The translations under genes were made by a program, and so were the position numbers. Source: Rhodanobacter sp. FW104-R8 (GTDB lineage Bacteria > Pseudomonadota > Gammaproteobacteria > Xanthomonadales > Rhodanobacteraceae). From it: a stretch of DNA of 64,000 bases. The stretch spans positions 1 to 64,000 of the forward strand of contig NZ_LVJR01000022.1 of the NCBI RefSeq assembly GCF_001617365.1. Reading direction: 5' to 3'. Shown in pieces: positions 35,339-43,927 of the stretch; position 1 is the first letter of the stretch, and each line of letters opens with the position of its first letter. The notes beneath the pieces were generated by a model, which saw only the letters and a program-made list of their open reading frames with translations, was not told the DNA's origin and did not search any database.

Positions 35339-37201
35339 TCAGCTGTCCAGCTCCGTCCAGCGCGCGTAGGCCGCGTCAAGCTCGGCCTGCAGTGCCGCCA
35401 GTGCCTCGTTCGCCTTGACGATGGCGGCGCTGTCCTGCTGGAAGAAAGTTGGCTCGTTCATCGCGGCGGTGCGCGCGGCGATGTCGCCTTCCAGTTGCTC
35501 GATGCGCTTGGGCAGTTGCTCTAGCTCGTGCTGCTCCTTGAAGCTGCGCTTGCGCTTTGCCGCGACGGGGGCCGCAGGCGCCGGGGCCGGCGTGGCGGAT
35601 TTGCCGGTGGCGGGCGTGCTGCGCGCGGCGGGCCGCTGGCGCAGCCAGTCCGTATAGCCGCCCACGTATTCGCCGACCCGGCCCTCGCCTTCCAGCACCA
35701 GGGTGCTGGATACCACGTTGTCGAGGAAGGCGCGGTCGTGCGAGACCAGCAGCAGGGTGCCCTGGTAGTCGGTGAGCAGCTCTTCCAGCAGTTCGAGCGT
35801 TTCGACGTCGAGGTCGTTGGTGGGCTCGTCCATCACCAGCAGGTTGGACGGCTGCGCGAACAGCTTGGCCAGCAGCAGGCGGTTGCGCTCGCCGCCGGAC
35901 AGGCGGGTGATCGGCGCGCGCGCGCGCTCGGGCGAGAACAGGAAATCCTGCAGGTAGCCGATGATGTGCTTGCGCTGGCCGTTGAGCTCGATGTACTCGC
36001 GGCCCTCGGCCACGTTGTCCAGCGCGTTGAGCTGGTCGTTGAGCTGCAGCCGGTGCTGGTCGAAGTAGGCGATCTGGATGCCGGTGCCCAGCTCCGCGGT
36101 GCCGCGTTGCGGCTTGAGCTCGCCCAGCATGATCTTCAGCAGGGTGCTCTTGCCGGCGCCGTTCGGGCCGATGATGCCGATGCGGTCGCCGCGCATCACC
36201 GTGGTGGTGAGGTTCTCGATCAGCACGCGACCGCCGTAGGCCTGGCGCACGTGATCGAGATCGATCACCTTCTTGCCCGAGGCCTGCGCGTTGGCCGCGG
36301 TCATCTTCACGTTGCCGCCCAGCTCGCGGCGTTGCGCGCGCTCGTTGCGCAGCGCCTTCAGCGCGCGCACGCGGCCTTCATTGCGCGTGCGCCGGGCCTT
36401 GATGCCCTGGCGGATCCACACTTCCTCCTGCGCCAGCTTCTTGTCGAACAGTGCATTAGCCTGTGCCTCGGCGTGCAGGCGCTCCTCACGCCGGCGCAGG
36501 TAGTTGTCGTAGTCGCCGGGCCAGTCGGTGAGCGCGCCGCGGTCGATCTCCACGATGCGCGTGGCCAGCGCACGCAGGAAGCTGCGGTCGTGGGTGACGA
36601 AGATGATGCTGCCGGCGAACTGCTTGAGGAAGGTCTCCAGCCAGCCGATCGCCTCGATGTCGAGGTGATTGGTCGGCTCGTCCAGCAGCAGCACGTCGGG
36701 CTTGCGCACCAGCGCCTGGGCCAGCAGCACGCGGCGCTTCATGCCGCCGGACAGCGCGGCGAAGTCGGTGTCGCCGGGCAGCTCCAGCTGGGTCAGCACG
36801 TCGCTGACGCGGCGGTCCAGGTCCCAGCCGTGCTGCGCCTCGATCTGGTGCTGCACGTCGCCGAGCGCATCGAAGTCGCCTTCCGCCAGCAGGTGGTGGT
36901 AGCGCGCCAGCAGATGGCCGAGATCGCCCAGCCCCTCGGCGACCACGTCGAACACGCTGCCGGCGGTGCCTTGCGGCACTTCCTGCGCCATCCGCGCGAC
37001 CACCACGCCGTTCTGGATGCGCACCTCGCCGTCGTCGGCCTGCAGCTCGCCGGCGATCAGCTTCATCAGGGTGGATTTGCCTTCGCCGTTGCGGCCGACG
37101 ATGCACACACGCTCGTTCGCCTCGATCGACAGATCGACGTGCTCGAGCAGGAGCGGGCCGCCGATGCTGAAGTCGACGCATTGCAATTGGATAAGAGACA
37201 T
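35339..37201 (-). CDS. uup: ABC-F ATPase Uup
   Basis: A 620-residue cytoplasmic ABC-F protein with two ATPase modules and no membrane segment. Walker A motifs are GRNGEGKST (about 37-45) and GPNGAGKST (about 344-352). Signatures are LSGGMKRRVLLAQAL and LSGGERNRLLLAKLF, and both Walker B motifs are followed by DEPTNHLD/DEPTNDLD. The inter-module linker is rich in Arg/Lys. After an Ala/Pro-rich stretch (about 525-550), a C-terminal coiled coil (about 555-618) is the DNA-binding domain typical of Uup and absent from EttA. ABC-F proteins act on ribosomes, and Uup also affects transposon excision. Confidence 0.95.
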   Translation of the reverse strand: MSLIQLQCVDFSIGGPLLLEHVDLSIEANERVCIVGRNGEGKSTLMKLIAGELQADDGEVRIQNGVVVARMAQEVPQGTAGSVFDVVAEGLGDLGHLLARYHHLLAEGDFDALGDVQHQIEAQHGWDLDRRVSDVLTQLELPGDTDFAALSGGMKRRVLLAQALVRKPDVLLLDEPTNHLDIEAIGWLETFLKQFAGSIIFVTHDRSFLRALATRIVEIDRGALTDWPGDYDNYLRRREERLHAEAQANALFDKKLAQEEVWIRQGIKARRTRNEGRVRALKALRNERAQRRELGGNVKMTAANAQASGKKVIDLDHVRQAYGGRVLIENLTTTVMRGDRIGIIGPNGAGKSTLLKIMLGELKPQRGTAELGTGIQIAYFDQHRLQLNDQLNALDNVAEGREYIELNGQRKHIIGYLQDFLFSPERARAPITRLSGGERNRLLLAKLFAQPSNLLVMDEPTNDLDVETLELLEELLTDYQGTLLLVSHDRAFLDNVVSSTLVLEGEGRVGEYVGGYTDWLRQRPAARSTPATGKSATPAPAPAAPVAAKRKRSFKEQHELEQLPKRIEQLEGDIAARTAAMNEPTFFQQDSAAIVKANEALAALQAELDAAYARWTELDS

Positions 37202-37281: not shown

Positions 37282-37830
37282 TCAGTGCAGGTCGCGGGTG
37301 GGATGAAGCGGGATGATCTTCGCCGAGGGCATCAGTCTGGCGCGCAGCAGATCAGCCGCGAAGTGGAAGTCGCGACCCAGATCCTTGCGTGAGAACGGCG
37401 TCTCCAGCATGCGCAGCGCCACCTCGAACGCCGTGAGGCGACCATGGGCGAATTGCGACCACGCCTCGTACTTGCGCTGGTTCATCGATGAAACCAGGCT
37501 GCGATTGCCGTTGCGGGCGAATGCCGGTGGCGATCGCCAGGCATCCAATTCGCCTTCGGCCAGCGCACCACCGATCCCGCAGGCGGCCAACAGGAACCGC
37601 AGCTGCTCTGCCGCCATCTCGTACAGGCGTTTCAAATCGACGGCGCGGCCAGGCACGACCAGCACCGTTCCCGTGGCGGCGTTCATAAGCAGCACGAACG
37701 GCTGGCGGTCGATGAAGTCGATGTCAGCGCACCACTCGCCCAGTGGGTTGTCCGACGGTGCCGGTTCAGCCAGCGCGGGCGGCACACGCAAGCGCTTGAG
37801 CAGCTTTTGCGAGCAGCGGACGACGGTCAC
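37282..37830 (-). CDS. DUF6933-domain protein
   Basis: A 182-residue protein that starts SQKLLKRLRVPPAL and contains NPLGEWCADIDFIDRQPFVL, which match the DUF6933 pattern. No catalytic motif is recognisable. The start is a GTG whose GTGA overlaps the TGA closing the interrupted specificity-subunit frame. This overlap shows that the gene was coupled to that frame before the amber codon appeared. Family members are frequently found beside mobile or defence genes, but their function is unknown. It is the last gene of the restriction-modification operon. Confidence 0.72.
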   Translation of the reverse strand: MTVVRCSQKLLKRLRVPPALAEPAPSDNPLGEWCADIDFIDRQPFVLLMNAATGTVLVVPGRAVDLKRLYEMAAEQLRFLLAACGIGGALAEGELDAWRSPPAFARNGNRSLVSSMNQRKYEAWSQFAHGRLTAFEVALRMLETPFSRKDLGRDFHFAADLLRARLMPSAKIIPLHPTRDLH

Positions 37831-37991
37831 GGTGCACCGCTGGCGGGCAGTTCGAATGAAGCGAGGTGCCGCAAGGCGGCGGCCTCGGAGTCCTCAATGG
37901 CGAGTTCGACGGCGCGCTTGGCCGCATTGAGAAGCTCGGCGGCGCGCTCGCGGCTGCCCTGCGCGGCGCGCACGTTCGTTACGATCTGGGT
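37827..37991 (-). pseudogene. Cut-off 3' end of the specificity-subunit gene (in-frame after amber stop)
   Basis: After the TAG at 37992-37994 the same frame stays open for 54 codons and closes with TGA at 37827-37829. The peptide runs through VRAAQGSRERAAELLNAAKR and AVELAIEDSEAAALRHL, a charged helical stretch of the type that forms the C-terminal coiled coil of restriction S subunits. It is far too protein-like to be chance. It therefore looks like the detached end of the upstream coding frame. Confidence 0.8.
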
Positions 37992-39281
37992 CTATACGCT
38001 TGCCTCGATGCGGGGGAACGGCAGTGCCAGCAGATCCGCTTCGGCTATAGCCGGATACAGGCTGGCGCTGGTGTGCAGATCCATCAGTTCGCACACCGGC
38101 AGCAGGCGCAGGTAGGCCAGCAGCACCTCGGGTGCGACAGTTTCCGGCTCAAGCACCACGAAGCCGGATGAGCACACACTGCCGTCCTGCTCCGGGGCGA
38201 TCAGGGCTGAGAGTCGGCGAATCGGCCGTACCATCGAGGTAACTACGTCGCCCGCGTGCACATGCCAGGTCGCGCGACTGGGCGCGTCGGACTGCTCCGT
38301 CTGCACTGCCATTGCGGTGCCGTCGGCGCGCAGGTTGCCGATCTCGATGTAGTCGAACGTGCCGATGGCCGATGCGACGAAGCGTTCGTGCCGCGCCGGC
38401 GCCACATCGCGGATGCGTTGGCCATGCTGGCCGAGCCGGCCAAGCAGTTCGGCGACGCGCGGTGCGAAGTACTCCGCATCCAGTCGTCCAGCGGCGAAGG
38501 CATCGCGGCTGCTGCGGGCGTAGCTTAGCGGCTCCGGTGGTTGCCAATTCTCCAGCCCCAAAGCGGATAGGAGTCCGTGCTCTGCTTCGTGCTGCGCCGC
38601 AATCGCAGCGGCGCGTGCTTTGTAGGAAGCCTGAACAAGCCGAAGACAATGCTCCTTCAATTCCTTGTTTGCGCGAAAAATCGGCAATTCGCGGACAAGA
38701 GTTATTGTCAGATGCGGCTGTGCCGTTTGCGAGCTCGAGCGTATCAAGGCGCGGTTGAAGAAGCCTGTTTGGAAGTAGAGATAGAGAAATACTCGGTCAA
38801 CTTCCTGCAACTTTGAACTATTTAGAAAAATGAGGTCGCGGCTAACCGCTGCTTCAGCAGTTACCAAGCCAACACGTGCGACGCTTCCGCCTTTCGTAAA
38901 TACAATGTCCCCTGGTGCCACCTTGGAGAGTGTGGGGAATTGATCGCACAAGCTCGCTGGGATTCGAGTACAGGTCTCGAAGTCGATAACCGAATCTACG
39001 TCCGCGACACGAAGAAACGGCAAATCGCCTTGATCGTAGTAGGCTTCTATCGAGGGATAGAAGGCGCTCGCATCAACTGAAACACAGAGCTGCCTGAACT
39101 TGCAGAATACCGAAGCCTTCTCGACGACGTGCATTGCATCGAGTAAATGTTGTCGCTGGAAATACTCGGGATCGAATCGAGTTGTCGAGGCACTGCGGAG
39201 CACATCCGAGAGCCGAACTTCTGAAATTTCCAGCCCCTCCAACAAGCCCACATAGCGGGCCGCGTCAAAGGGGCGATTCAA
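37992..39281 (-). CDS. Restriction-modification specificity (S) subunit, interrupted by an amber codon
   Basis: A 429-residue S-like protein with two target-recognition domains (about 15-210 and 255-425) joined by a helical spacer rich in Ala/Glu (about 215-250). Such a subunit chooses the DNA site for the methylase-nuclease encoded upstream. The start is TTG, overlapping the upstream gene's stop (TTGA). An in-frame TAG at 37992 ends it 54 codons before the natural TGA, removing the second coiled-coil helix. The first half of the gene is visibly richer in A/T than the second, which suggests a domain acquired by recombination. Whether the shortened protein works is unknown. Confidence 0.82.
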   Translation of the reverse strand: MNRPFDAARYVGLLEGLEISEVRLSDVLRSASTTRFDPEYFQRQHLLDAMHVVEKASVFCKFRQLCVSVDASAFYPSIEAYYDQGDLPFLRVADVDSVIDFETCTRIPASLCDQFPTLSKVAPGDIVFTKGGSVARVGLVTAEAAVSRDLIFLNSSKLQEVDRVFLYLYFQTGFFNRALIRSSSQTAQPHLTITLVRELPIFRANKELKEHCLRLVQASYKARAAAIAAQHEAEHGLLSALGLENWQPPEPLSYARSSRDAFAAGRLDAEYFAPRVAELLGRLGQHGQRIRDVAPARHERFVASAIGTFDYIEIGNLRADGTAMAVQTEQSDAPSRATWHVHAGDVVTSMVRPIRRLSALIAPEQDGSVCSSGFVVLEPETVAPEVLLAYLRLLPVCELMDLHTSASLYPAIAEADLLALPFPRIEASV

Positions 39282-41521
39282 AAAAAACCGAGTTTCTCCT
39301 TCGCGGCGAACTCGGCAAAGGCCTCGGCGATACCGTCCTGGGTCAGGCCGTCGTGGTTGAACAGGTCGTGCTGGATCACCCAGTGCCCGTGGCTGTCGCG
39401 CAAAGGTTTGCGGTAGGTCTCGACCTCGCGCAGGCGCTGCAACTGATAGCCATCCTCCTTGCGAATCGCCTCCAGGCTGCCGTGTTGCTGGATCAGGGCC
39501 AGTCCCGATTCGACCCCTTGCTTGCCATCCGGATAATTGACTCGATACAGGCTGGCGGCTTCCGCCACCGCGAAGCGCTGTTTCAACTCACCTTCTGAGA
39601 GGTCTTCCAGCGTTGGCTTGTCGCTCTTTGTCCAGTCGAACAGACGATGGCGTGGCTGCGATAAGGCAATGATTTTCTCGCCGCTGTTGTCCTTGCTGGC
39701 CAGTTGCTGGGTGGCGAAGAAGATCGGGTAGTCGTCGGTGCGCGGGCAGTGGTAGCGCGGATCGCTGGCGTCGTCGTTCCACTTCTGCACGAACAGCACG
39801 CTGGTCTTGGTGCCGGTGTGCGGCTTGAAGGTGTTGGGGTGCAGGCCGACCACGGCGAGGATGCGGCAGCGTTCGGCGATGAACTCACGTACGCGCTGGT
39901 CGCTGGCGTTGTTGAAGCGGCCTTGCGGCAGCACCACGGCCATACGCCCGCCGGGGCGCAGGAAGTCCAGGTTGCGCTCGATGAACAACAGGTCGCGGCC
40001 GACCTTGCCTTCCAGTTTGCCGTTGGCCTTGTGGCCCAGCTCGTAGGGAGAGAGCATATCGCTCTGCTTGATGTCGCCGGCGAACGGTGGATTGGCCATC
40101 AATACGTCGAAGCCGAACGTGCGGTTCTGGTTCTTCGGATGTCGGAGCTTCTTGAGCTTGGCCCAGCCGGGGCCGTAGGTTTCCTGCCAGTCTTCGTCCT
40201 GCCGGATGCGCTCGTCCCATTTGGTCCAGTCCAGCGTGTTCATGTGCAACACGTTGGTCTGACCGTCGCCGGCAATCAGGTTGAGGCAGCGTGCCACGCG
40301 CACGGACTTCTCGTCGAAGTCGATGGCAAATACCTTGTTGCGCACGTAGTCGCGGCAGCGCTGCGGCTTGTCTTCCATGGTGAACAGGTGCGATACCGGC
40401 AGGCCTTCGTCAGCCAGGATCTGCCTCCATACATGGAAGATCGAATGCACGGTGAATCCGGCGCTACCAGCGGCGGTGTCGATCACGGTTTCCGATTCGT
40501 GCGGATTCATCATGCGCACGCACATGTCGATCACCCAGCGCGGCGTGAAGTACTGGCCCTTCTCGCCCTTGGACGACTTGCCGACCAGGTATTCGAAGGC
40601 GTCGTCCACCACGTCGAGGTTGGAGTTGAACAGCTTCCATTCCTCCAGCGAACCGACACAGACTTGCAGGTGCTCCGGACCGAGCTTGATCTTGTCATCC
40701 TCGGCGAACACCCCGGGCCATTCCTTCTTGGCGTCGTCGAACAAGGACTGGATGCTGACCTTGAGCTGCGCGGCGGTGTTGCTGTTGCGGAAGCGCAGAT
40801 ACTTGTGGCGGCCGCGATAGCAGTACATCTCGTCGTAGAGCTTGCTGAAGATCAGCTTGAACACTTCCTCGAACACGTCCACACCGGCATTGGCAAGGAC
40901 TTCGTTCTCCATTTCCTCGATCAACTGCTTGAGGCTGCGCGTGCGCTTGCCCTCGATTTCGCGGCGCTGCTCAACCTCGATCAGCGTCTGCATCGTCCAC
41001 GGCTGGCCGGCGATGTCATCGATGGTCTGGCCGACGTTGGGAACGTCGGGAATCTCGACGAAGTAGTTGGGATTCTTGCGGTGCCACGCGACCGATTCCA
41101 TGCCGTTGCACCACATTGCCAGCGGCGCGCCGGTGGCGTGGGTGTACGAGCGAAGTTGTTCCTTGCCGTCCTTGAGCTTGCCTTGCTTCACTTCGACGAT
41201 GAGGTAGGGCACGGTGGGGCGGTCGGCATCCATCACCACGATGTCGGCGCGCTTGGAGGTATCGCGGCCGAAGGTGACCGGATATTCCACGCCAAGTCGC
41301 GATGCCGGGTACCCGTAGTACAGCGTCAGTCGTTGCAGCCACAGTTGCCGCACCAGTTCCTCGCGCTTGGCCTGCACAGGTTTGTCGCGCACCAGGCAAT
41401 GCACGTAGGCCTTGCCATTCTTTTCCGTCAGGCTGGCTTCGACCGCTGCGAGCGCGGCCCCGCCGAAGAGCTCGGTCAGGGAATCTCGGTCGATGTCGTT
41501 GAGCAACTGGTCAAGGTGCAT
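39278..41521 (-). CDS. Nuclease-methylase fusion: HSDR_N-like domain plus N6-adenine DNA methylase
   Basis: A 747-residue protein. The N-terminal domain (about 20-135) has a PD-(D/E)xK-like set: Asp93 in RADIVVMDAD and Glu110/Lys112 in LIVEVKQGK, as in the N-terminal domain of type I R subunits. A helical region follows, then an HsdM-type methylase (about 300-690) with SAM motif I DTAAGSAGF (348-356) and catalytic motif IV NPPF (477-480). With a separate S subunit this resembles BcgI-like type IIB or compact type I systems. The ATG at 41521 precedes MHLDQLLNDIDRD. In-frame sequence upstream is the operator repeat. The 3' end is a run of eight Ts on the coding strand. Confidence 0.85.
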   Translation of the reverse strand: MHLDQLLNDIDRDSLTELFGGAALAAVEASLTEKNGKAYVHCLVRDKPVQAKREELVRQLWLQRLTLYYGYPASRLGVEYPVTFGRDTSKRADIVVMDADRPTVPYLIVEVKQGKLKDGKEQLRSYTHATGAPLAMWCNGMESVAWHRKNPNYFVEIPDVPNVGQTIDDIAGQPWTMQTLIEVEQRREIEGKRTRSLKQLIEEMENEVLANAGVDVFEEVFKLIFSKLYDEMYCYRGRHKYLRFRNSNTAAQLKVSIQSLFDDAKKEWPGVFAEDDKIKLGPEHLQVCVGSLEEWKLFNSNLDVVDDAFEYLVGKSSKGEKGQYFTPRWVIDMCVRMMNPHESETVIDTAAGSAGFTVHSIFHVWRQILADEGLPVSHLFTMEDKPQRCRDYVRNKVFAIDFDEKSVRVARCLNLIAGDGQTNVLHMNTLDWTKWDERIRQDEDWQETYGPGWAKLKKLRHPKNQNRTFGFDVLMANPPFAGDIKQSDMLSPYELGHKANGKLEGKVGRDLLFIERNLDFLRPGGRMAVVLPQGRFNNASDQRVREFIAERCRILAVVGLHPNTFKPHTGTKTSVLFVQKWNDDASDPRYHCPRTDDYPIFFATQQLASKDNSGEKIIALSQPRHRLFDWTKSDKPTLEDLSEGELKQRFAVAEAASLYRVNYPDGKQGVESGLALIQQHGSLEAIRKEDGYQLQRLREVETYRKPLRDSHGHWVIQHDLFNHDGLTQDGIAEAFAEFAAKEKLGFF

Positions 41522-41548
41522 GGGGCGGCCGTTCGTGCGAATGAAAAA

Positions 41549-41599
41549 GATACCGTGGTTATACCACTCATTCTTTGTGAGTGGTATAACCACGGTATC
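41549..41599. promoter_or_regulatory. 22-bp perfect inverted repeat in the divergent promoter region
   Basis: Arms 41549-41570 and 41578-41599 are perfect reverse complements around a 7-base centre. Each arm contains a smaller dyad GTGGTTATACCAC or its complement (centres at 41561 and 41587, 26 bp apart). Each arm also contains an outward-facing TATAAC that could serve as a -10 box for the methylase gene (minus) and the nucleotidyltransferase gene (plus). The -35 hexamers are poor. The layout suggests a shared operator controlling both directions. It could alternatively form an RNA hairpin. Confidence 0.75.
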
Positions 41600-41612
41600 C
41601 GCCGGAGCCCTG

Positions 41613-42677
41613 ATGATGGCCTTGTACCGCGAACTTCCCGTTGCCGCCCAGACCGCCTACGCCGAACTGCAGGAGCTGGTTCAAGTGGCTGAGACCATGC
41701 GTTCGCCGGCGTCGCTGACCGGGACGGTGGGCTGGAAGACAATCAAGGGACGCCGCTACGCGTATTGGCAGTTCAAGGAGATCGACGGACGCAAGCGCGA
41801 GTATTACCTGGGGCCGGAGGGACCGCCGATCGAGGCGATCGAAAATGCACGCGACAAACCGGTACCGGCATTTGAAGCGGTGGCGCGACAGGCCAGTGCG
41901 GCATTCGCCCAGGGCAATGCGCTTACGCCGGCAAAGCACTTTCGCATCGTCAAGCGATTCGCCGATTACCAGTTCTTTCGTGCCGGCGGATTGCTGGTGG
42001 GCACGCAGGCGTTCCTCGCCATGGGCAACCAGCTGGGAGTGGTGTGGAGCGAGGGCGCGCGCACTCTCGATCTTGATTTTGCGCATGCGGGAGCAGGCGG
42101 CAACGTGGAGGTGGCGTTGCCGGCCAATATGCATGCGGATGTGGACGATGCGCTGAAGTCACTGGAGATGGGATTCCTGCCGGCACTTGGCGGCAGTCGC
42201 GGCTTCGCCAGCAACTATGTCAGCGAGAAGGAACCCGATTTGCGTATCGACTTTCTGACCGTGATGCGCCGTGGCGGCAAGGATGTGTCGATGCCGGATA
42301 TCGGCGTGGCGCTGACGCCGCTGAAGTTTCTGGATTATTTGTTGGAGCGGCCTGGGCAGGCCGTGCTGCTGGACCGGGCCGACGCTTGCCTGGTGAATTT
42401 GCCCGACCCAGCGCGCTACGGCTTGCACAAACTGCTGGTGGCCGCCGAGCGTGGACCGCGGCATGCGAAATACGCCAAGGATATTTTCCAGGCTTTGAGC
42501 CTGATCGACTGGCATCTGCAGCGTGCGCCCAGTGTGCTGGTGGAAGCGTGGGACGACCTGGCCGCTCGGGGTGCGGGCTGGGTCAGGCGCGCACGGCAGT
42601 CGTTGCAGGCCGCACCTGCGGTACAACATGAACTGGTGTTGCGCTTCGGAAAGGCTGTTGGTCTGAAACTGAAATAG
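41613..42677 (+). CDS. GSU2403-type nucleotidyltransferase-fold protein
   Basis: A 354-residue protein with a polymerase-beta-like nucleotidyltransferase core. LLVGTQAFLAMGNQLG (about 127-142) carries the Gly-Thr helix start. TLDLDFAHAG gives the Asp-x-Asp metal pair (153 and 155), and DLRIDFLTVM offers a third Asp (213). The N-terminal 100 residues hold WKTIKGRRYAYWQFKEIDG, a basic beta-hairpin, and the C-terminal part is helical. This fits the family named after GSU2403. Biochemical function is unproven, and related minimal nucleotidyltransferases modify proteins or tRNAs in toxin-antitoxin and defence systems. Two adjacent ATGs share GGAG at 41604-41607. Confidence 0.8.
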   Translation: MMALYRELPVAAQTAYAELQELVQVAETMRSPASLTGTVGWKTIKGRRYAYWQFKEIDGRKREYYLGPEGPPIEAIENARDKPVPAFEAVARQASAAFAQGNALTPAKHFRIVKRFADYQFFRAGGLLVGTQAFLAMGNQLGVVWSEGARTLDLDFAHAGAGGNVEVALPANMHADVDDALKSLEMGFLPALGGSRGFASNYVSEKEPDLRIDFLTVMRRGGKDVSMPDIGVALTPLKFLDYLLERPGQAVLLDRADACLVNLPDPARYGLHKLLVAAERGPRHAKYAKDIFQALSLIDWHLQRAPSVLVEAWDDLAARGAGWVRRARQSLQAAPAVQHELVLRFGKAVGLKLK

Positions 42678-42727: not shown

Positions 42728-43927
42728 TTACTTCAGCTTGGCATCCTTGCGCAGCGCCTCGGCGCGGTCGGTCTTTTCCCACGAGAACGCGGTGAAGGCC
42801 TTGCCGTCCGGACCCTTCATCTGGTGCGGGGTGCGGCCGAAGTGGCCGTAGCTGGCGGTCTGCTGGTACATCGGGTGGATCAGGTCGAGCATCTGCAAGA
42901 TGCCGTACGGGCGCAGGTCGAAGTGCTTGCGGATCAGCTTCTCGATCTTCTCGTCGCTGATCTTGCCGGTGCCGAAGGTGGTGACCGAGATCGAGGTGGG
43001 GTGGGCCACGCCGATCGCGTAGCTGACCTGCACTTCGCAGCGGTCGGCGATGCCGGCGGCCACGATGTTCTTGGCCACGTAGCGTGCGGCGTAGGCGGCC
43101 GAGCGGTCGACCTTGGACGGGTCCTTGCCCGAGAACGCGCCACCGCCGTGACGGGCCCAGCCGCCGTAGGTGTCCACGATGATCTTGCGGCCGGTCAGGC
43201 CGCAGTCGCCCACCGGGCCGCCGATCTCGAACTTGCCGGTCGGGTTGATGTGGAACTTGGTTCCCTTGTGCAGCAGCTTGGCGGGCAGCACCGGCTTCAG
43301 GATGTGCTCGCGCACGGCCTCGATCAGGTCCTTCTGCTTCACGCCCGGGTCGTGCTGGGTCGACAGCACCACGGCGTCGATCGCGGTGGCCACGCCATGC
43401 TCGTAGCGCAGGGTGACCTGGCTCTTGGCGTCCGGGCGCAGCCACGGCAGCGGCGAATTCTTCTTCTTGCGCACCTTCGCCTGCTGCTCGACCAGGCGGT
43501 GCGAGTAGTAGATCGCCGCCGGCATCATGTCCTTCGTCTCGTTCGTCGCGTAGCCGAACATCAGGCCCTGGTCGCCGGCGCCCTGGTCTTCCGGGTTCTT
43601 GCGGTCCACGCCCTGGTTGATGTCCGGCGACTGCTTGCCGATCAGGTTGATCACGCCGCAGGTGGCGCCGTCGAAGCCGACGTTGCTGGAGTCGTAGCCG
43701 ATGTCGACGATCACCTTGCGGGTGATCGCTTCGAGGTCGATCCACGCGCTGGTGGTGATTTCGCCGGCGACGATCGCCACGCCGGTCTTGACCATGGTTT
43801 CGCAGGCCACGCGGGCGCGCGGATCCTGCGCGATGATTGCGTCGAGCACGGCGTCGGAGATCTGGTCGGCGACTTTGTCCGGATGGCCTTCGGAGACCGA
43901 TTCGGAGGTGAACAGGTAGTTGGACAT
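42728..43927 (-). CDS. metK: S-adenosylmethionine synthase MetK
   Basis: A 399-residue cytosolic enzyme making S-adenosylmethionine from methionine and ATP. The opening [36 protein letters not shown], the phosphate loop [18 protein letters not shown] and the C-terminal YGHFGR are all diagnostic. Length is slightly above the E. coli enzyme (384) because of the [19 protein letters not shown] segment, which is common in this group. The minus-strand leader of about 50 bp carries AAGGGA 12 bases before the ATG and a possible TATCAT -10 box (complement of 43976-43981). No SAM riboswitch was recognised. Confidence 0.98.

Follow-up and report, generated by a model that had tools for sequence, protein, structure and literature searches.

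The 64,000-nt stretch of the Rhodanobacter sp. FW104-R8 contig NZ_LVJR01000022.1 (positions 1 to 64,000; hereafter the window) carries, between uup and metK, a restriction-modification (R-M) operon of an M and an S gene, a gene of the DUF6933 family and a nucleotidyltransferase gene of the PF12281 family. We consider it probable that this cassette consists of two units, namely an R-M operon with DUF6933 as its accessory, inserted beside an autonomous and probably self-regulated nucleotidyltransferase. The original prediction, made from the sequence of the window, had put the same genes, with a shared symmetric site, forward as a candidate combined defence system. The cassette genes recognised in that prediction proved not to be chance readings, as judged by their profile scores, nor is the symmetric site a chance one, as judged by its position in a scan of 147 family genomes (genomes are numbered with G and loci with L below).

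The palindrome accompanies the nucleotidyltransferase gene

The symmetric site, an inverted repeat whose two 22-bp arms pair perfectly around a loop of 7 nt, spans 41549–41599 and contains a conserved 33-bp core, GTTATAC...GTATAAC (41558–41590). Directly downstream on the + strand lies the long-form PF12281 (NTP_transf_8, GSU2403 family) nucleotidyltransferase gene of 354 aa (41613–42677, or from 41616), whose start is most likely 41613 or 41616, correcting the earlier choice of 41412. Its assignment is secure at the profile level (E-value 4e-40, 138.5 bits against a cut-off of 26.3), and D153, D155 and D213, which we take to be the catalytic aspartates, are invariant across nine nucleotidyltransferase sequences. 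PF12281 is present in 12 of the 147 family genomes, nine of which have the long form like that of the window (225–788 bits). The pattern GTTATAC-N8-30-GTATAAC likewise occurs in nine family genomes, one site each, and these are exactly the nine with the long form; each of these palindromes is located no more than ~100 nt upstream of the nucleotidyltransferase gene, with or without R-M genes. The probability of hitting the same nine genomes by chance is ~1e-14 with kinship ignored. A reversed control pattern also matches nine of the 147 genomes, one of them (G140) among the long-form nine; therefore, the evidence lies in the coincidence with the gene, not in the number of sites. Thus the symmetric site of the original prediction is a real palindrome, but that it is shared is not supported, since it precedes the nucleotidyltransferase gene in all nine cases, whatever the neighbours.

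The geometry of the palindrome is tightly constrained. All 16 distinct sites span 33–34 bp, though the search patterns allowed 22–44 and 29–36 bp, and the outer GTTAT/ATAAC letters are constant. At the free inner positions 8–10, the two arms are complementary in 46 of 48 cells, compared with ~23 expected on shuffling, and the inner letters vary with the protein group (CCAC, GCAA, TAG or TAA; GTAA in the gammaproteobacterial L150). Outside the family, L148, L149 and L150, out of six other gammaproteobacterial copies examined, have a palindrome 37–55 nt upstream of the gene. Among 12 plasmid copies, four have GTTATAC...GTATAAC over 29 bp, a fifth has a variant, a sixth has GTTATAATG...CATTATAAC as its second-best repeat, and the others have short repeats of 8–10 pairs, within the range of control genes. 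For comparison, 12 of 570 control upstream regions score ≥12, one of them belonging to another copy of the nucleotidyltransferase gene. At one locus (L101:1139-1211), two tandem copies of the palindrome stand upstream of a single nucleotidyltransferase gene.

In five loci (L047, L048, L069, L098 and L099) the second arm ends 4–7 nt before the chosen start codon, a position that, judged from the sequence, fits a −10 box with an operator more than an RNA hairpin. The N-terminal ~105 residues of the nucleotidyltransferase are the natural candidate for binding the palindrome. We also considered the possibility that the site is owned by the R-M genes and rejected it, since the palindrome is present in G088, G109 and G030 with no R-M genes seen alongside and is not upstream of the R-M genes in G001 and G140. 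Within the scope of the literature searches made, the palindrome is new.

Seven of the nine long-form family copies of the nucleotidyltransferase gene stand tail to tail with metK. On plasmids, the family was found on 421 of 72,556 records, mostly from rhizobia and their relatives; for 12 plasmid copies, no gene was a constant neighbour and none within 2.5–4 kb on either side was annotated as R-M, in gene tables that are incomplete, and an HNH endonuclease gene lay at the edge of one of these stretches. On viral contigs the gene was found at a single locus (L179), which served solely as a row of alignment A4. None of nine members of this protein family matched a PADLOC model, and a PDB sequence search gave no credible match. 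No functional study of the family was found among the literature matches listed, a single paper naming GSU2403 once; if our reading is true, this little-studied family becomes testable through a palindrome that within the bacterial family marks no other gene. A shorter PF12281 form of 269–271 aa occurs in palindrome-free genomes (L052, L053 and L054). In L053 and L054 its gene overlaps an upstream gene, the products of which have a similar C-terminus, and the overlapping genes possibly form a two-gene unit.

DUF6933 recurs with restriction genes and is kept after their loss

The DUF6933 gene (37282–37830, − strand, 182 aa, GTG start) matches PF22016 (E-value 7e-24, 84.9 bits against a gathering score of 27) and the PADLOC candidate PDC-S63 (E-value 9.7e-7), the latter being matched by all 34 DUF6933 members of alignment A3. 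The family was found in 10 of the 147 family genomes and in 15 genomes of a phylum scan. Its gene repeatedly stands last in R-M operons, which are of type I, type III, ISP, MmeI-like and type IIB-like kinds. R-M genes or their stubs lie within 5 kb upstream on the same strand in 22 of 43 DUF6933 loci (E-value 1e-3) versus 1 of 40 control regions (Fisher P = 1.7e-11, each control region being counted as two, i.e. 80 windows). The controls were metK regions from cassette-free family genomes, and both of their strands were searched at an E-value of 1e-4. The 43 loci are partly non-independent, as six of them duplicate loci from the family scan, and L074 and L075 are near-identical; five of the 22 linked loci were found with queries from those same loci, their R-M nature being given by Pfam. 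L107 was excluded from the 22 because its HsdR-like match is distant and for the most part lies more than 5 kb away, and a finer search would add L068. The link between DUF6933 and restriction that the original prediction had drawn is thus borne out, being strong in the family and spanning several R-M types.

Furthermore, DUF6933 is intact beside all eight R-M deletion stubs (L055, L068, L072, L074, L075, L084, L099 and L100); L081, L082 and L101, which are within the 22, were not used as stubs because their R-M genes reach contig ends. The ratio of non-synonymous to synonymous substitution (dN/dS) is 0.13–0.34 with or without R-M genes in the 18 pairs, of 19 compared, for which it is defined. 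DUF6933 is therefore under purifying selection and is kept after R-M loss. Since intact copies persist without an R-M enzyme, we favour a self-standing antiphage or restriction-tuning function, as far as sequence comparison can suggest one, over a toxin held by the R-M complex.

The predicted fold of DUF6933 is likely RNase H-like (retroviral integrase-like). A conserved acidic catalytic triad is absent, E94 being the sole acidic column that is (nearly) invariant among the 34 members. A PDB sequence search with DUF6933 gave no credible match, no homologue was found on plasmid records at an E-value of 1e-5, and none was found on viral contigs. Two fusions were observed, one with UPF0149 and SEC-C domains (L096:10001-11317) and the other with HAD_SAK_2, a HAD domain of RNA repair proteins (L108:7097-8041).

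Several other genes were seen around DUF6933. A Fic family gene recurs beside R-M/DUF6933 cassettes at the metK locus and one other (L044, L055, L059, L068, L099 and L100; the label is Pfam-checked for L044 only). A toxin-antitoxin-like pair, RelBE-like by eye, separates hsdR from hsdM in type I operons whose last gene is DUF6933 (L057, L058, L076, L079 and L083) and persists with DUF6933 in the remnants L074, L075 and L084. A second DUF6933 hotspot, with or without R-M genes, is directly upstream of a gene labelled prpF-like by eye (L073, L076, L077, L078, L080, L081, L090, L092, L094 and L104). Outside the family, DUF6933 adjoins a nucleotidyltransferase-like gene and a small gene that is helix-turn-helix-like (L160:3226-4442; L161:9455-10655), both labels being given by eye and neither gene having a Pfam match; this is perhaps a second, independent pairing of DUF6933 with a nucleotidyltransferase.

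The M–S pair resembles type IIB enzymes

The restriction genes lie on the − strand. M (39278–41521, 747 aa) combines an HSDR_N_2 nuclease (E-value 1.7e-25) with an N6-adenine methylase (N6_Mtase, E-value 1.1e-28); its start was placed at 41521, the alternative GTG at 41593 falling inside the symmetric site. D93, E110, K112 and Q122 and the NPPF motif (477–480), which we take to mark the working motifs of the enzyme, are invariant between the M of the window and four relatives of 39–74% identity. The nearest solved chain is RM.BsaXI, with a sequence match confined to the methylase part (residues 300–582). On plasmids, the relatives are organised either as M–S pairs (Klebsiella, Trichormus) or as a single RMS chain (Picosynechococcus). 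There is no hsdR gene in the operon, so the pair does not class as a type I R-M system, and neither the window nor eight M-relative loci (these plasmid relatives plus five further M loci) gave a match to two HsdR reference proteins, the search for a distant R having covered these stretches and not the rest of the genome. Because RM.BsaXI is the nearest solved chain, the relatives are M–S or RMS and HsdR has no match, a type IIB-like R-M pair is supported at the level of sequence. These results agree with the original prediction, which had described a nuclease-like domain and an N6-adenine methylase in one chain, a separate S, no HsdR and a likeness to BcgI and type IIB enzymes. Membership in MADS (MAD2/MAD5) was rejected, as M scores 298.7 against 720 bits and S 43.9 against 400, both below the NCBIfam cut-offs.

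The S gene (37992–39281, − strand, 429 aa) ends at an in-frame TAG (37992–37994). Its Methylase_S match is weak (E-value 5.5e-4, below the curated cut-off) and covers one stretch, the second conserved helix being behind the stop; the PADLOC Specificity_I model matches at an E-value of 3.5e-17. The conserved C-terminal part continues past the stop in the same frame (37827–37991, − strand) and, searched as a separate piece, is 67% identical over 40 aa to the S of L062. The TAG may reflect either a decaying enzyme or a sequencing error. The translational coupling of S and DUF6933 that had been proposed is affected by this stop: S as it stands ends at the TAG without overlap, while the continuing frame overlaps the GTG of DUF6933 by 4 bp, and therefore the coupling is to a frame that is now interrupted. 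In an M–S relative on a Klebsiella plasmid (L189:8389-9180), a 263-aa gene without Pfam match overlaps the end of S, in the place of DUF6933.

As originally described, the cassette sits between uup (35339–37201, − strand; an ABC-F ATPase, the name following the original prediction) and metK (42728–43927, − strand), and both were confirmed as flanks of the insertion site. The GC content is 0.59–0.63 per kb across 38–43 kb versus 0.65–0.69 in the adjacent kilobases. The metK–uup spacing is 121–140 bp in six of nine other Rhodanobacter genomes, and uup is within 12 kb of metK in 35 of 40 family genomes examined, where the gap is empty or contains a dacC-like gene or genes that look ordinary by eye (gene neighbourhoods were called with a home-made open reading frame caller, and some of the R-M labels were checked against Pfam). 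Since the junction is near-empty in those six Rhodanobacter genomes and variable in the family genomes, the cassette is an insertion at a variable yet recognisable metK–uup junction.

Probably two units rather than one system

The exact trio of this R-M type, DUF6933 and the nucleotidyltransferase was found in 1 of the 147 genomes, and the palindrome follows the nucleotidyltransferase; we therefore rejected a single three-part system as the leading explanation. The claim of one system tied by a shared site is also not supported in the light of the plasmid nucleotidyltransferase copies, which have no annotated R-M gene nearby, and of the eight M-relative loci, which have neither DUF6933 nor the nucleotidyltransferase. 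Within the family, the nucleotidyltransferase occurs without DUF6933 in six of nine genomes, and DUF6933 without the nucleotidyltransferase in seven of ten.

According to our reading, the first unit would be a type IIB-like R-M operon with DUF6933 as its last gene, in which, by analogy with the family, an (RM)2S complex would methylate adenines within its bipartite recognition site and, where this methylation is lacking, cleave the DNA to either side of the site. DUF6933 would be an accessory under selection of its own, accompanying several R-M types and able to outlive them. The second unit would be an autonomous nucleotidyltransferase gene with its own 33–34-bp palindrome at its promoter, most likely an operator that the N-terminal domain of the enzyme would bind to repress its own gene. 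The restriction operon with DUF6933 would have been inserted beside this resident, self-contained gene, and in Rhodanobacter the R-M part would tend to be lost while DUF6933 and the nucleotidyltransferase stay. If this is right, DUF6933 is a restriction-linked accessory family whose worth is independent of any one R-M type, and a test case for why accessory genes ride with restriction and outlive it.

A number of observations weigh against this reading. Regarding the palindrome, the number of sites alone is not above background, the reversed control being equal, although their position is; a GTTATA-type palindrome was not found in six of the 12 plasmid copies or in three of the six other gammaproteobacterial copies (L146, L151 and L152). 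The G001 nucleotidyltransferase gene (L044:8755-9892) carries, in its assembly, a frameshift that separates the N-terminal part from the catalytic domain, no Pfam family matches the N-terminal part above cut-off, and the structure model of the enzyme was poor (predicted local distance difference test score, pLDDT, 47.8) and was not used. Regarding DUF6933, its link to R-M genes is weaker outside the family (4 of 11 loci by eye), L095 (Rhodanobacter sp. B05, L045/L095) counts among the 22 on a weak match to the start of M whose E-value is 0.026 once the palindrome is excluded, and the gene is broken in L094 and L104 and has internal stops in three genomes of the class or phylum. Of the 147 family genomes, 65 have M-like matches and 10 have DUF6933; DUF6933 is also lacking from the eight M-relative loci, and the TAG in S may be a sequencing error. 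Lastly, DUF6933 and the long nucleotidyltransferase lie within 4 kb of each other in 3 of the 147 genomes, where 0.6 would be expected (hypergeometric P = 0.016, kinship ignored); a functional tie between them is possible because this pairing is above independence and stands beside several R-M types. The original prediction had named rare co-occurrence as evidence against itself, and this rarity was found for the exact trio, while the weaker pairing of DUF6933 with the nucleotidyltransferase survives. An ISP remnant beside the G082 nucleotidyltransferase, seen by eye, was not reached at an E-value of 1e-3 and was not counted.

Alternative explanations

The pairing just described is the basis for a modular defence, in which any R-M system, DUF6933 and the nucleotidyltransferase act together, the R-M part being interchangeable and acting first, with the others as backup or controller. 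The two genes directly adjoin in G001 and G080 and are separated only by M–S in the window, and the pair is present in eight genomes, in two gene orders. It stands with the type IIB-like genes in the window and with type III genes in L103 (which is G001) and L098; L099 has a remnant of a type III system, L101 the 3' portion of an ISP gene where the contig ends, L068 a remnant of the S tail and L095 (which is G080) a doubtful remnant of the start of M, and L069 has no R-M genes. However, every pair whose flank is known is located at metK (L098 is cut off by a contig end), and this shared address explains the pairing because metK is the home of seven of the nine family nucleotidyltransferases anyway; each gene also occurs without the other, and we regard a modular defence as unlikely. 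A closer tie is conceivable in the window itself. The palindrome is in the divergent promoter region of M, and therefore restriction may have come under nucleotidyltransferase control by position. Extended to a mechanism, DUF6933 would be a general restriction partner of RNase H fold, lacking a canonical active site, that joins unrelated R-M types and outlasts them; the palindrome of a self-repressing nucleotidyltransferase of a new class would have captured the R-M promoter, and this single enzyme would detect infection and set restriction free. Such a nucleotidyltransferase-gated R-M island seems improbable to us. It is less probable still that the palindrome works at the RNA level, as the hairpin of a terminator or leader, instead of as a DNA operator. 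On the − strand of the window a T run follows it and it scores as terminator-like, while the fixed length and constant outer letters of the 16 sites and the second arm at the place of a −10 box in five loci speak for DNA. Scanning the window for promoters gave no sigma-70-type match and was of no help in deciding between the two.

Two further alternatives concern DUF6933. It could temper restriction, through antirestriction or alleviation, and be kept as protection against lost or incoming R-M systems; this would account for its ties to unrelated R-M types that have restriction alone in common and for its survival of R-M loss. Such protection would be needed only briefly, yet selection persists in pairs without any R-M trace (L069/L070, L069/L071 and L088/L089), making tempering an unlikely role. 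PrrC, which guards a type I enzyme, is a precedent for a different role, that of a toxin or nuclease which the R-M complex keeps silent until a phage blocks restriction and so sets it free. The position of DUF6933 as the last, often overlapping gene of R-M operons and its predicted RNase H-like fold would suit such a toxin. Intact, selected DUF6933 nevertheless persists beside R-M stubs and has no conserved acidic triad, and we consider this role very unlikely. The reading as an R-M operon with an accessory DUF6933 beside a self-contained nucleotidyltransferase accordingly remains our preferred one.

Comparison with known systems

Type IIB enzymes are described as 2:1 complexes of RM and S subunits that cut both sides of a bipartite site (PMC3874165, PMC11997821). 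Like the system of the window, BcgI and BsaXI have the nuclease and the N6-adenine methylase in one RM chain, a separate S and no helicase subunit, and the Picosynechococcus relative is an RMS single chain. The pair of the window, which joins the type IIB-like kind as a new member, differs from BsaXI in that the sequence match is limited to the methylase part and S is interrupted.

For the control of the second unit, two described systems offer partial analogies. In the AbiE type IV toxin-antitoxin system, a nucleotidyltransferase-like gene is reported to be controlled at inverted repeats (PMC7319586, PMC3985639). AbiE belongs to DUF1814, whereas the nucleotidyltransferase of the window belongs to PF12281, and no constant AbiEi-like partner was seen near the nine family or 12 plasmid copies. 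The gene of RptR, which lies near R-M genes, is reported to be self-regulated and to have palindromic sites at the −10 box (PMC12255303). As far as that account goes, the RptR repressor is helical, has a mass of 9 kDa and has TAGCTA sites, in contrast to the 354-aa nucleotidyltransferase and the 33–34-bp palindrome of the window. Both may serve by analogy as earlier examples of a nucleotidyltransferase-like gene or an R-M island under the control of repeats or palindromes.

The PADLOC candidates (PDCs) are described as proposed by guilt-by-embedding (PMC12988326). PDC-S63 is the DUF6933 family, to which the gene of the window belongs by its PF22016 and PDC-S63 matches; the literature searched lists it as a defence candidate, with no functional test found. 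To this candidate, the present analysis adds the breadth of R-M types that it accompanies, its retention after R-M loss, a likely RNase H-like fold and two fusions.

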